Assembly (NCBI RefSeq): GCF_014861485.1
Contig: NZ_JACZHT010000002.1
Span: 248,001-312,000 of the forward strand
Reading direction: 5' to 3'
Source of the DNA: Phaeovibrio sulfidiphilus
GTDB lineage: Bacteria > Pseudomonadota > Alphaproteobacteria > Rhodospirillales > Rhodospirillaceae
DNA: 64,000 bases
Position 1 is the first letter of the stretch. Each line of letters begins with the position of its first letter. Under the pieces are notes generated by a model. The model was not told where the DNA came from and searched no databases. It saw nothing but the letters and a program-made list of their open reading frames with translations. Of this stretch, positions 49,373 to 55,379 are shown piece after piece. The translations under genes and the position numbers were made by a program.

Positions 49373-50893
49373 TCAGGGCCGCGGGAATTCGGAGCCATGC
49401 CTCAGGGGGGACACGGGCCCGGACCCCGGTGGCAGCGGCGGTGACGGTGACCGTGATTGGGTCGGTGACGGGGGCGGTGGTTGTGGCGGCAGGGGCTCCC
49501 TCGCCGGTGCCGGGGCGTCATTGTCCCGGGTGTCGACGGACAGAAGGGCGTTGCGGGGCACCCAGCCCATGATGCCGTCCCGGGTGACAATGCGGGCCCA
49601 GTCGTCGTCGGCCTGGTCCACCAGGATCACGAAGGTGTTCTGGCGCAGGCGGGCGATCTCGCCGTAGCCGCGCCCCGGTCCCAGCCGGACAATCACGAAG
49701 GGGGACAGGATCGCGTGGAGGCGTCCGTTCGGCCCGGCCTCCCGGGGGGAGGACTGGAGAAGGGCGTCCACATAGAGCTGGGAGGGATCCGGGGCGACGG
49801 CGGTGTGTGCGGCTTTCGGATCCCACGTGCGGGAGAAGGGCAGATCCTCGCGCAGCCAGGGCCACGCCACCATGAGTGTGAACAGCACCAGGACCATGGG
49901 GAACAGGATCTGGAGCCAGAACCCCGGGCCACGCCTGCGCCAGGCGTTGCGCAGCCGCCGCACCTCGCCCCGGGCGGCCAGGGTGTCCATGAGCCGTTCG
50001 GCACTCTGGCGCTCGGTCTTGCCCGGCGCATAGCGGGCCGCATCCGAGGCCAGGCTCCAGGCGATCTCGCGCTGGTCCCGCGCCTCGAAGGCGCGTGCCT
50101 GCTCCATCAGCAGGGCGTGGTTCTCCCGGCCCGGGCGGATCCCGCCCCGCAGGCAGGTCCACAGGGCCAGAGCCGTCTGGGGCGGGCCGGAGGGAAGGGC
50201 CCACCAGCCCCGGACCCAGTTGTGAAGGGCCGTGGCCAGGGCCGTGCGATCGGCGCAGCGGCTGCAGAACACGCCCGAGACCGTATCGCGCACCACCCGG
50301 TTCTTGCGGCCGGTCACCCGGGGAAAGATCACATAGCGGGGTTGGGCCGTCACATTCCTGCACGACGAGCACACCCGCAGCGGGGGCAGGGTGGAAAAGG
50401 GCCCCGTCCGGGAGCCGCTGCCCCTGCCGGTGGCGCTGTCGCTGTCGTCGCCCGGGTCCGCCCCTGTGCCTTGGGCTCCGTTGCCTCCGGGGGCCGAGCC
50501 CTGCCAGCCGTTCCCGCCCGTGCCCGTGCCCGCGCCGGAGCTGCCTGCGCCCGCGCGTGAGCCGGCGCCCGAGGCCCGCGCATAGGCACGGCTGGCCCGT
50601 GCCGCCGCCCCTGTGGCGCTGCTGCGGCTGGGGTTGCGCCGGGTGCGGTGGTCGCCCCGCGCGTCGAGTTCGTCGTTGTGGTAGGCCACCCGCAGCCGGG
50701 AATCCGAGAGAACCCTGTAGGCGGTGCTCAGAAAATGGAACTCGGCGGCGGCGTTCGGGCTGCTGTTGCGGTCCGGGTGCAGCTCCAGGGCCTTTCTCCG
50801 GTACGCGGCCTTGATCTCGGCTTCCGAGGCATCCGCCGAAAGCCCGAGAACCCGGTAGTATCCTCTCGGGTCATGTGTGGGTCTTCTACCCAT
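49373..50893 (-). CDS. J-domain protein with zinc-ribbon-like cysteines, a membrane helix and an SH3b domain
   Basis: The product has 506 residues. A J domain is present at about 10-75 with HPD at 39-41. A low-complexity Gly/Ala/Ser linker follows (about 80-170), then CSSC and CSRC pairs (about 178-227) that could bind zinc. A membrane helix (LQILFPMVLVLFTLMVAWPW) divides the protein, and a C-terminal SH3b-like segment (VRLGPGRGYGEIARLRQNT, MGWVPRNALL) precedes a Pro-rich tail. The topology would put the J domain in the cytoplasm and SH3b in the periplasm. No DnaK is nearby. Confidence 0.8.
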   Translation of the reverse strand: MGRRPTHDPRGYYRVLGLSADASEAEIKAAYRRKALELHPDRNSSPNAAAEFHFLSTAYRVLSDSRLRVAYHNDELDARGDHRTRRNPSRSSATGAAARASRAYARASGAGSRAGAGSSGAGTGTGGNGWQGSAPGGNGAQGTGADPGDDSDSATGRGSGSRTGPFSTLPPLRVCSSCRNVTAQPRYVIFPRVTGRKNRVVRDTVSGVFCSRCADRTALATALHNWVRGWWALPSGPPQTALALWTCLRGGIRPGRENHALLMEQARAFEARDQREIAWSLASDAARYAPGKTERQSAERLMDTLAARGEVRRLRNAWRRRGPGFWLQILFPMVLVLFTLMVAWPWLREDLPFSRTWDPKAAHTAVAPDPSQLYVDALLQSSPREAGPNGRLHAILSPFVIVRLGPGRGYGEIARLRQNTFVILVDQADDDWARIVTRDGIMGWVPRNALLSVDTRDNDAPAPAREPLPPQPPPPSPTQSRSPSPPLPPGSGPVSPLRHGSEFPRP

Positions 50894-51327: not shown

Positions 51328-51562
51328 ACATCTCCGGACGGGGTGGCTTGCCGGATCGGGTCATCCCCGGGTCCGGTCCAGTCTGTATTCCGGCAGATAC
51401 TATAGCGTGGCTTCCATTGCGGGGGTATGGGCTTTTTCCTGCAACCCGGACCCTCATCGGGACGCATGGGGCTTTGCGAAAGGCCGGATCCTGGTTTAGT
51501 GTAGGCGTCCAAAAACGAGACTCCGGACGATGCAGGCCGGAGACAGCAAAAGAAGTTTCCCC

Positions 51563-52942
51563 ATGTCCGGTTCACAGATTTCAGACAACTCCCGGCCCCG
51601 TCTTGCGATTATCGGCGGCGGTCTGGCCGGCAGCGAGGCCGCATGGCAGGCCGCATCCCGCGGTCTTGCGGTGACCCTTTACGAGATGCGCCCGGGGCGC
51701 ATGACCCCCGCCCACCAGACGGCTGCCCTTGGGGAGCTGGTGTGCTCCAACTCCCTGCGCTCGGATGACCCGTTCGGCAACGCCGTCGGGCTTCTGCACG
51801 AGGAGATGCGCAAGGCGGGCTCCCTGATCCTTCAGGCCGCGGACGAGACGAAGGTTCCCGCGGGCGGTGCCCTTGCGGTGGACCGGGAGGCCTTTGCCGC
51901 GGCCATCACCCGGGCTCTGGAGTCCCATCCGAACGTCGAGATCCGCCGCGAGGAGGTGACAGCCCTTCCCCCGGACGGGCCGGTGATCGTGGCCTCGGGC
52001 CCGCTGACCTCGGATGCCCTTGCGGGTGCCCTGCGGGCGTACACCGGCGAGGACAGCCTGTCCTTCTTCGATGCCATTGCCCCGATCATCCACACAGAGT
52101 CCCTCGATTTCTCGAAGGTCTGGTACCAGTCGCGCTACGACCGGGGCGAGGGCAGGGACTACATCAACTGCCCCCTCGACCGGGACACCTACGAGGCCTT
52201 TGTGGACGCCCTTCTGGAGGCTGACCCCGTCTCGGTCCGGGAGTGGGAGGGTATTCCCTGGTTCGACGGCTGCCTGCCCGTGGAGGAAATGGCCCGGCGC
52301 GGTCGCCAGACCCTGGCCCACGGCCCCCTGAAGCCGGTCGGCCTGACCAACCCCCACGATCCGGAGCACAAGCCCCACGCGGTGGTCCAGCTTCGCCAGG
52401 ACAACGCCCTGGGCACCCTCTACAACATGGTGGGCTTCCAGACCCGCCTGCGCTACGGGGACCAGACCCGCATCTTCCGCATGATCCCGGGCCTTGAGAA
52501 CGCACAGTTCGCCCGCCTGGGGGGCATGCACCGCAACACGTTTCTGAACGCTCCGAGGCTTCTGGATTCCCGCCTGTGCCTGAAGGCCGATCCGCGCATC
52601 CGTTTTTGCGGCCAGATCACGGGCTGCGAGGGCTACGTGGAGAGTGCCGCGACCGGATATCTCGCGGGGGTTTTCGCGGCTTTCGATCTTTTGGGCCGGT
52701 CTCTTCCCCAGCCTCCGGAAACTACGGCGCTGGGCGCACTTCTGTCCCATATAACGGTGAACGCCAACGCGCAGACCTATCAACCCATGAACATCAACTT
52801 CGGCCTGTTTCCGCCTCTGGCGGCACCCGAGGGACCGTTCGAGGGCCGCAGGCCAAGGCCCCTGCGCGGGCGCGAGAAAAAGGCAGCCCTTGCGCAACGG
52901 GCTCTTGACGCCCTGGCCGGGTGGCTGCCTGCAACGTCTTGA
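51563..52942 (+). CDS. trmFO: Folate/FAD-dependent tRNA(uracil-54) methyltransferase TrmFO
   Basis: The enzyme has 459 residues from ATG 51563 and forms m5U54 in tRNA using methylenetetrahydrofolate. [20 protein letters not shown] is the FAD-binding motif; [36 protein letters not shown] and [18 protein letters not shown] are signature segments. An in-frame ATG at 51530 could add 11 residues; neither has a strong ribosome-binding site. Length is normal. Confidence 0.95.
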
Positions 52943-52981
52943 ACAAGTCAAACGCCCGAGAGCAACAAGGAGCAGAAACTC

Positions 52982-54109
52982 ATGCCTTCCAACCTCAGCG
53001 CCGCTGACGGCGCCATTGCCAACGTCCTGACGATTGCCGGCACCGACCCCACGGGTGGGGCAGGCATCCAGGCGGACCTGAAAACCTTCTCCGCCCTTGG
53101 GTGCTACGGCATGTCCGTCGTGACCGCCGTGGTGGCGCAGAACACCCGTGGCGTCCAGTCCTACCGGACCATGGAGCCCGCGTTCGTCGGCGACCAGCTT
53201 GCCTCGGTGTTCGAGGACGTCCGCGTCGATGCGGTCAAGATCGGCATGGTGGCCAACGCGGAAATCGCGGCCGTGATCGCCAATGCGATCAAGAAGTACA
53301 AGGCCCGCAACGTGGTCCTGGATCCGGTGATGGTGGCCAAGAGCGGCGATTCCCTTCTTGCGGACGATGCGGTCGAGGCCGTGCGCACGCTTCTGGTCCC
53401 GGTCTCCACCGTCATCACCCCCAACCTTCCGGAGGCCGGTGTCCTTCTGGGCATCGAGGAGCCGGACTGCCTTGATGCCATGAAGATCTGCGCCCAGGAG
53501 CTTCTGCGGCTCGGCTCGAAGTGGGTTCTGCTGAAGGGCGGCCACCTGGACGGTGACGAGTCCATCGATCTTCTGGCCGGTCCGGATGATCTGATCGGCT
53601 ACGCAGCGCCCCGGGTCAGCACCCGCAACGACCACGGCACCGGCTGCACGCTGTCCAGCGCCATTGCCTCCCTGATGCCCTATTACGAGCTTCCCGAGGC
53701 CGTCCAGCTGGCCAAGAGCTATCTCTTCAGCGCCCTTCTGCACGCGGACGAGCTGAACGTGGGGGATGGCTCCGGGCGCGGTCCGGTGCACCACTTCCAC
53801 GCCCTGTGGAACCCGGGCGGGGATCACGGCCACGACCACGGTGAGGGCTGTTGCGGTGGCGGTGGTCACGGTCACGGTCATGACCACGGCGAGGGTGGCT
53901 GCTGCGGCGGTGGCGGCCACGGCCATTCCCACGGCCATGACCACGGCGGCGAGGGCTGCTGTGGCGGCGGTGGCGGTCACGGGCACGGTCATGACGACGG
54001 TGAGGGCTGCTGCGGTGGCGGTGGCCGGCATCACCACGACCATGGCCACGACCACGCCCACGGGGGCGGCTGCTGTGGCGGCCACGCTCACGGCGACCGC
54101 GGGCGCTAG
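52982..54109 (+). CDS. thiD: HMP/HMP-P kinase ThiD with a His/Cys/Gly-rich metal-binding tail
   Basis: The protein has 375 residues. Residues 1-about 275 are an ordinary ThiD, phosphorylating hydroxymethylpyrimidine (phosphate) for thiamine synthesis: VLTIAGTDPTGGAGIQADLK, VVLDPVMVAKSG and NDHGTGCTLSSAIAS (anion hole) are all present. From about 281 to the end there is a tail of about 95 residues containing 24 His and 10 Cys (five CC pairs), made of repeated H-x-H-x-H and CCGGGG blocks. Tails of this composition occur on nickel, cobalt or zinc chaperones; none is known to me on ThiD. It follows trmFO by 39 bases, and its tail DNA is an imperfect tandem repeat. Confidence 0.92.
   Translation: MPSNLSAADGAIANVLTIAGTDPTGGAGIQADLKTFSALGCYGMSVVTAVVAQNTRGVQSYRTMEPAFVGDQLASVFEDVRVDAVKIGMVANAEIAAVIANAIKKYKARNVVLDPVMVAKSGDSLLADDAVEAVRTLLVPVSTVITPNLPEAGVLLGIEEPDCLDAMKICAQELLRLGSKWVLLKGGHLDGDESIDLLAGPDDLIGYAAPRVSTRNDHGTGCTLSSAIASLMPYYELPEAVQLAKSYLFSALLHADELNVGDGSGRGPVHHFHALWNPGGDHGHDHGEGCCGGGGHGHGHDHGEGGCCGGGGHGHSHGHDHGGEGCCGGGGGHGHGHDDGEGCCGGGGRHHHDHGHDHAHGGGCCGGHAHGDRGR
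53822..54100 (+). repeat. Imperfect tandem repeat encoding the thiD metal-binding tail
   Basis: Five units of about 45-60 bases each encode a His-rich run, an acidic GEG or GGG, and CCGGGG or CCGG. They differ by substitutions and whole-codon insertions, and the frame is kept throughout. Confidence 0.85.
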
Positions 54110-54230
54110 ACTCCGCGCCTGAGGGCGGATGCGCTGACGCCGGTGTCCCGGGGGGAGACCGGCGGGCCTGTCCGCCCCGCTTGGGCGCCAGGGAACGCTC
54201 GGACAGGGACACGACGGGAGGACAGGGGAC

Positions 54231-55379
54231 ATGGGACGGTTTTTTACAGCGGTTCTGCCGGTTCTTGCGCTGATGGCGGGCTGTTCCGGTGGGGCGGCCC
54301 TTCATTTGCCCGACGTGGCGGCTCCGGCCGCAACGCCCTCACAGACCCCCGGGGGCCCCCTGTCCGGGGCCTCCACGCCCGCAGATCCCGTGTCTCCGGC
54401 TCCCGTGTCTCCGGCCCCGGGCACGCCGCCTGCGGGAACCCTCGAGGACCGGCGCTCCGATGCGCCCCTCGGTTCCGCGGCGCTTTTTGCCCGTATTCTG
54501 GACAGCGACGTGGTCGTTCTGGGCGAGCGCCACGACAATCCCTGGCACCGGCAGTTCCAGACTGCGGTGGTGGACGCCCTTGTCCGGGCCGGGCGGCGGC
54601 CTGCGCTGGTGGTGGAGATGCTTGACGGGGCGGATGTCCCGGCCCTTTCGTCCTGGCGGGCGGCGCCCGATCGCCCGCCCGAGGCCCTGGCGGCCAGCCT
54701 GGACTGGGAGAAGACAGGCCGCGGCCCCTTTGCGCCGCTTGCGGATGTGTTCCGTCTGGCCCGGGATCACGGGCTGGAGATCCGCCCCGGCAGTCCCTCC
54801 CGGGAGCGTCTGCGCCAGGTCGTGCGCGAGGGAGTGGACAGCCTGCCCACGGAGACCGTGTCGGCCCTGGGGCTTGACCGCCCCATGCCCCGCTTTCTTG
54901 AAAACGCGCTCCGTCAGGAGCTTGAGGCCGCCCACTGCGGCCACATGCCGGCGGTCATGATCCCCGGCATGGTCAACGCCCAGAGGCTTCGGGACGGGGC
55001 CCTTGCCCACGAGGCGCTCCAGGCCCTGCAGGCGGATCCGGGCGCCCGCCCGGTGGTGATCCTTACCGGGCTTGGCCATGCCCGCACGGACCGGGGAGCG
55101 CCGTGGATTCTGTCGTCCCTGGCGCCGTCGCTGCGGGTGCTCTCGGTGGGTCTTCTGGAGGTGTCGTCACAGTCCCCCGGCGGGGCGGCGGAGGAGGAAA
55201 CCGGGGCGCGGCCCTGGGATGTGATGTGGTTTGCTCCCGCTCCCCAGCGACCGGATCCGTGCGCGGCGTTTGGCCTGCCGTCCGGTTCGGGGTCGGGGTC
55301 CGGGGGATCGGCGCCGTCGGGTGTGCCGTCGGATGGAGCCCGGGGGTCCAAAGGCTCCCAGAGTCCCCGGGGGTCGTAG
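54231..55379 (+). CDS. ChaN-family lipoprotein
   Basis: The product has 382 residues. LALMAGC is a lipobox (Cys at about 18). A Pro/Ser/Ala linker leads to the ChaN domain (about 80-310): VVVLGERHDNPWHRQFQ, PALVVEMLDGADV, MPAVMIPGMVNAQR and VILTGLGHARTDRGAP. A ChaN protein of Campylobacter binds two haems at a dimer interface and serves iron uptake. The C terminus is Gly/Ser-rich. It lies 121 bases after thiD, with GGAGG upstream. Confidence 0.85.
   Translation: MGRFFTAVLPVLALMAGCSGGAALHLPDVAAPAATPSQTPGGPLSGASTPADPVSPAPVSPAPGTPPAGTLEDRRSDAPLGSAALFARILDSDVVVLGERHDNPWHRQFQTAVVDALVRAGRRPALVVEMLDGADVPALSSWRAAPDRPPEALAASLDWEKTGRGPFAPLADVFRLARDHGLEIRPGSPSRERLRQVVREGVDSLPTETVSALGLDRPMPRFLENALRQELEAAHCGHMPAVMIPGMVNAQRLRDGALAHEALQALQADPGARPVVILTGLGHARTDRGAPWILSSLAPSLRVLSVGLLEVSSQSPGGAAEEETGARPWDVMWFAPAPQRPDPCAAFGLPSGSGSGSGGSAPSGVPSDGARGSKGSQSPRGS

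Follow-up and report, generated by a model that had tools for sequence, protein, structure and literature searches.

The closest described counterpart found for the tail reported here is the C-terminus of the chaperone SlyD. According to PMC7055735, the SlyD tail is unstructured, carries up to 7 Ni per protein and is thought to store Ni for hydrogenase; tails of this kind take up several Ni or Zn ions at micromolar affinity, Ni bound to SlyD reversibly inhibits its isomerase, and the tail of E. coli SlyD plays an important part in stimulating the release of Ni from HypB. Mycobacterial GroEL1 offers another parallel, being a housekeeping-type protein with a His-rich C-terminal tail that has been proposed to serve metal homeostasis. 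However, GroEL1 is a chaperonin, and Cys-Cys units are not mentioned in the accessible portion of that source (PMC10170517). His-rich HypB is also a nickel protein with a His-rich extension and is encoded in the same genome as the tail described here, but its extension is N-terminal, lacks CC pairs, contains long His/Asp runs and is carried by a GTPase. In the literature searched, mostly papers open without subscription, no report linked ThiD to a His-rich or metal-binding extension, or SlyD to thiamine in connection with His-rich sequence and nickel.

Within the stretch analysed (64,000 nucleotides, hereafter the window), an uninterrupted single ORF at 52982-54109 (+) encodes a 375-aa protein in which a ThiD kinase and a His/Cys/Gly tail are joined in frame (Table 1). 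Judged from its sequence, the kinase part is a complete HMP/HMP-P kinase. It matches Pfam Phos_pyr_kin (PF08543) at 2.5e-89 over model positions 1-243 of 246, scores 297.8 bits against TIGR00097 (cut-off 204.95), and aligns over residues 14-277 to solved ThiD structures, with 7r8y as the best match (7.4e-89). The invariant Cys of the HGTGC motif is an active-site residue in ThiD. Across 43 aligned ThiD, H218, G219, G221 and C222 are among the invariant residues and T220 is nearly so, and the window protein has all of the invariant residues. AlphaFold assigned pLDDT values of at least 90 to 218 residues of the protein and modelled the kinase as folded with high confidence. The earlier impression, formed from the letters alone, that the kinase looks fully functional is therefore upheld in that the domain appears intact by Pfam, TIGR00097 and motif residues. 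Pfam reported kinase families only, with no FKBP-type isomerase or IF chaperone domain in the protein, and neither Pfam nor NCBIfam gave a GTPase domain of the HypB or CobW G3E type; the five PF02492 matches in the genome all fall in genes other than thiD. When compared with SlyD residues 1-145, the kinase part scores 32, against 180 for the tail and the SlyD tail.

Table 1. Features of the thiD locus in window coordinates
Feature	Position	Strand	Basis or remark
TrmFO (tRNA methyltransferase)	51530..52942	+	TIGR00137, 558 bits; 39 bases upstream of thiD; not part of the proposed mechanism
RBS-like AAGGAG	52967..52972	+	9 bases 5' of the ATG, read directly
ThiD kinase domain (residues 1-277, last residues HHFHALWN)	52982..53812	+	Pfam/NCBIfam, alignment to solved ThiD, AlphaFold
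His/Cys/Gly tail, SlyD-type, residues 278-375	53813..54106	+	Mostly predicted disordered
Tail unit 1: PGGDHGHDHGEG-CCGGGG	53813..53866	+	
Tail unit 2: HGHGHDHGEGG-CCGGGG	53867..53917	+	
Tail unit 3: HGHSHGHDHGGEG-CCGGGGG	53918..53977	+	Most SlyD-like stretch in the alignment
Tail unit 4: HGHGHDDGEG-CCGGGG	53978..54025	+	
Tail unit 5: RHHHDHGHDHAHGGG-CCGG	54026..54082	+	Diverged
Tail end HAHGDRGR and stop codon	54083..54109	+	
ChaN-family protein	54231..55379	+	PF04187, 8.3e-37; 121 bases downstream of thiD; lipobox-like LMAGC by eye

The last 95 residues (53822-54106) contain 24 His, 10 Cys in five CC pairs, 42 Gly and 9 Asp. The tail coordinates and His/Cys counts given by the sequence-only reading were exact, although the natural start lies slightly earlier, at residue 278 (53813), so that the tail comprises 98 residues placed directly behind the ThiD end HHFHALWN. 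It is built of five degenerate units of roughly HGHGHDHGEG-CCGGGG, each of 16-20 residues and anchored on CC-GG, followed by an 8-residue end, and Tandem Repeats Finder returned periods including 48 bases with 74% matches. Across 42 window ORFs chosen by GC at codon positions, the densest 95-residue stretch holds 34 His and Cys residues in the ThiD tail and 15 in the next ORF, which argues that the tail is not a product of chance. AlphaFold modelled the tail as disordered, with nearly all of residues 287-371 below a pLDDT of 50. A known Pfam or NCBIfam domain was rejected as its identity, since no model in either collection matched it.

With its period of about 48 bases and its occurrence in a single genome, the tandem array might have arisen when a simple repeat grew past the former stop codon, and might since have been tolerated as a functionless addition. 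We regard this as unlikely, though not negligibly so, given the pattern of change between the units and their SlyD-like residue order. Comparing every unit with every other gave 10, 20 and 77 differences at codon positions 1, 2 and 3, and comparing adjacent units only gave 1, 6 and 32. Codon differences were synonymous or nonsynonymous in a ratio of 62:24 in the ThiD frame, compared with 3:65 and 9:61 in the other two forward frames; as the units were aligned as protein, these values somewhat favour the true frame and inflate the synonymous excess, and the pairs are not independent. Even so, the contrast between frames is large, and such a strong excess of synonymous change argues against both a neutral repeat and another forward frame. 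On this comparison, the repeat units conserve protein rather than DNA, and the tail is kept as protein. The remaining forward frames were rejected as coding, as the synonymous pattern fits the ThiD frame alone among the three compared. An 883-aa open frame at 51581-54232 (-), antisense to trmFO and thiD, was likewise rejected as a gene because the codon-position GC filter did not choose it, and it probably just mirrors the GC-rich codon usage.

Repeats of high GC content are a frequent source of assembly errors, and the tail is known from one assembly, with a GC3 of 0.74 against 0.86 in the kinase that stems from more GGT, CAT and TGT codons. That an error of assembly or sequencing brought two unrelated pieces together is nonetheless extremely improbable, for a single unbroken frame runs across kinase and tail, the locus lies inside a 470-kb contig, and the genome holds no second copy of the motif to mis-join.

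Searching all PDB sequences with the tail alone (E up to 10) returned one match, residues 153-194 of E. coli SlyD (2kfw), which is weak (E = 0.16) and carries a large composition bias. The local score between the tail and this SlyD fragment was 181, whereas 2000 shuffles gave a mean of 103 (sd 11, maximum 144) and 2000 dipeptide-block shuffles a mean of 110 (sd 11, maximum 164). Since the real score exceeds every shuffle, the two have residue order in common and not composition alone. The raw score of the tail against the 200-residue extension of its own HypB was 198, above the 180-181 for SlyD, but this ranking is reversed when length and composition are allowed for. The z values were 6.8 and 5.5 for the SlyD tail, with 0 and 0 of 1000 shuffles reaching the real score, and 3.4 and 2.7 for the HypB extension, with 1 and 6 of 1000 doing so; the best 49-residue HypB window scored 147, and the 49-residue SlyD tail 180. 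These comparisons support a residue order that fits the SlyD C-terminus better than the organism's own HypB extension once length is considered, and by the same measure the likeness of the HypB extension is mostly one of composition.

Nucleotide searches point to the same protein. Using blastn, tail DNA matched 5375 of 5426 E. coli genomes, at a median of 2 places per genome of which the best alone was named, and slyD lay under the best match in all 5 top rows and in all 30 rows spread down the ranking (35 of the 35 shown). Two codon-shuffled copies of the tail gave no DNA match in the E. coli genomes. The DNA identity of about 72-76% between the tail and slyD may follow from the same peptide order combined with few codons. 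No donor slyD tail was found in the organism's own genome at its Cys-Cys-Gly-Gly DNA sites. On plasmids, blastn gave short matches in 221 records, none spanning 80% of the query; most of the matches listed had no annotation beneath them, and one that was inspected corresponded to a hypothetical protein on the other strand. A tblastn search of plasmids with the low-complexity filter on returned no match to the tail.

The resemblance to the SlyD tail (2kfw, residues 153-194) extends to its C-terminal position, to the order HGHxHGGEG-CCGG, and to His and Cys fractions of 0.24 and 0.10 in the ThiD tail and 0.29 and 0.12 in SlyD. The two differ in that the SlyD tail contains 14 His, 6 Cys and two CC pairs in 49 residues, whereas the ThiD tail has 98 residues and five CC pairs, and in that the former sits on an FKBP/IF chaperone and the latter on a kinase. 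Considering sequence and structural model together, the tail is a SlyD-type module: C-terminal, predicted to be disordered, and His-rich, with CC-GG units in SlyD order. The earlier comparison with tails of the HypB, SlyD or CobW type is supported at the sequence level, and the PDB match, the shuffles and the E. coli slyD matches sharpen it to the SlyD C-terminus.

The carrier belongs to an ordinary family, for this ThiD shares with the members of PF08543 and TIGR00097 a complete kinase with HGTGC, and its kinase ends in HHFHALWN as in many relatives, whose ThiD stop within a few residues of that position. Among the genomes drawn as relatives, the organism's own was the only one from its genus. 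It had been suspected that no such tail occurs on other thiamine kinases, and a search of ThiD homologues for C-terminal His/Cys tails had been suggested as a check; both lead to the same result, in that the tail is found on the organism's own ThiD alone and on none of the 167 other loci whose C-terminal ends were read. These loci comprise a set of 109, of which 29 come from 55 other matching genomes and 80 are the top-ranked among at least 538 relatives, and a second set of 58; at least one gene (L171/L006) is counted twice, and one locus, L027, reaches the edge of its contig 7 residues past the ThiD match. The full-length query found matches at E <= 1e-30 in 287 of the 317 order genomes, own included, and among the matches listed no other extended deep into the tail unless it passed through stop codons. 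In the class sample, the tail was judged in the 55 of 385 genomes that matched at E <= 1e-60, own included, and of these 55 the organism's own genome alone carries it.

The motif CCGGGGHGH, searched as DNA, occurred in 1 of 317 order genomes, namely its own, and a scan of IMG/VR for the tail motif gave no match. A protein search with the tail alone matched 1 of 98 genomes, although the same search also missed the organism's own His-rich HypB. Matches to a three-Gly form of the motif in 2 of 385 class genomes were taken as chance and set aside, because in both the peptide lies only in an ORF that, judged by eye, overlaps a more gene-like one; this pattern misses the window tail itself, which has four or five Gly there. 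Across the sequences compared, ThiD is a new carrier for a known tail type, seen in one genome. The closest ThiD of the family, in genome G003, is broken after residue 146, before its end. At L173:2552-3157 in that genome, the reading is 65% identical to the window ThiD over residues 12-146, after which it gives way to other sequence; a ThiC-like reading, judged by eye, lies nearby on the opposite strand. The locus may represent a broken gene or a mis-assembly.

The genome holds one ThiD; beyond it, the search brought up just a 38%-identical segment covering residues 82-193. The window ThiD shares 60.5% identity with L144, a second ThiD of a family member (genome G078), and in the tree it groups with this locus and with class loci L182 and L184 at a support of 0.955. 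None of the 29 loci from other genomes, to which it is 41-47% identical, is placed together with the window ThiD in any clade of 110 or fewer leaves. This placement, together with the identity range, puts it on another branch than the family's usual ThiD, a position due to transfer or old duplication. At L144, by eye, the second-type ThiD overlaps a NUDIX-like gene and lies beside ThiM- and ThiE-like genes; a ThiD-NUDIX pairing is also annotated on a Sulfitobacter plasmid.

The sequence-only reading had pointed to a ChaN-like neighbour as adding a metal theme; its assignment to the ChaN family was confirmed (PF04187), but the theme is weak, resting on adjacency across a 121-base gap, and ChaN was rejected as a functional partner on the same ground. 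A scan for promoters and terminators gave 0 and 3 hits against 0.2 and 2.4 expected, with nothing above chance. Further upstream, an ORF at 49373-50893 (-) has an N-terminal DnaJ-like match and a weak C-terminal SH3-like match, both below curated cut-offs.

A stronger metal context than ChaN is provided, on another contig, by a [NiFe]-hydrogenase and the His-rich HypB. The large subunit of the hydrogenase is encoded at L221:937-2523 (about 765 bits). HypB scores 276 bits against TIGR00073 and holds 60 His in 200 residues from MCVTCGC; its gene (L220:15250-16701, minus strand) lies on contig C1 upstream of the one for HypF, with the hydrogenase large subunit about 4 kb away, whereas thiD is on C12. 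CobW is followed directly by CobN of cobalamin synthesis (L222:8052-13607), and the thiamine genes include ThiC and two ThiE-like genes. We read every exact Cys-Cys-Gly-Gly DNA site, 52 in total, in the assembly, which is 97.6% complete. The five within thiD are flanked by 9-14 His, counted over about 25 residues in each direction, and the other 47 by at most 5; none of these 52 exact sites revealed a SlyD bearing a CCGG/His tail.

Given the micromolar Ni and Zn binding and the storage role described for SlyD in PMC7055735, the best reading of this protein is a ThiD kinase fused to a SlyD-type metal buffer or store, perhaps for nickel, to which we assign about an even chance. By analogy, we infer that the tail binds metal: its His and Cys-Cys units would coordinate several ions of late transition metals (Ni, but also Zn, Co or Cu) with micromolar or better affinity. 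ThiD would act as a cytoplasmic store or buffer, filling at times of metal surplus, and the stored metal could be released to chaperones, such as the organism's own His-rich HypB, for [NiFe]-hydrogenase. Kinase and tail would need no mechanical coupling, as the tail would simply hang on the C-terminus. Several points weigh against a SlyD-type buffer. His/Cys/Gly tails can converge, the E value to SlyD is weak and the raw score to HypB is the higher one before length is considered, and short matches to the tail DNA also occur in plasmid records. Moreover, thiD does not lie beside the hydrogenase genes, HypB already has a large His-rich store of its own, and occurrence in one genome means that the tail comes without cross-species conservation.

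A more specific scenario is that the SlyD module moved from the chaperone to ThiD, which now serves as nickel donor or store for HypB and [NiFe]-hydrogenase. ThiD in this lineage would then be a moonlighting metallochaperone that arose when a housekeeping enzyme acquired a grafted tail; this we consider quite unlikely. Equally doubtful is its mechanistic form, in which ThiD replaces SlyD and its tail docks with HypB, supplying Ni or triggering its release during hydrogenase maturation. The genome does encode hydrogenase, HypB and HypF, the CCGG sites yielded no tailed SlyD, and the E. coli SlyD tail matters for stimulating Ni release from HypB (PMC7055735), but thiD and the hyp genes are physically unlinked and the organism's own HypB is already His-rich.

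The tail might instead act as a metal-sensing switch, with bound metal inhibiting or activating the kinase and tying thiamine synthesis to metal status. ThiC, which is part of the thiamine route here, is an Fe-S enzyme and can be damaged by metals. The reversible inhibition of the SlyD isomerase by Ni, as given in PMC7055735, is also in keeping with a switch. However, the tail is joined after the end of the canonical fold and is modelled as disordered, and the model lends no support to a contact with the active site, so a switch seems distinctly improbable.

As regards the preferred reading of a metal store or buffer, the finding suggests that metal tails of the SlyD type can be carried by an enzyme that has no known metal-delivery job. 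The tailed ThiD is a simple system for asking whether tails of this kind store metal independently of the carrier protein. If ThiD has indeed taken over the part of SlyD in nickel delivery, this would constitute an unexpected link between vitamin B1 synthesis and hydrogenase maturation.
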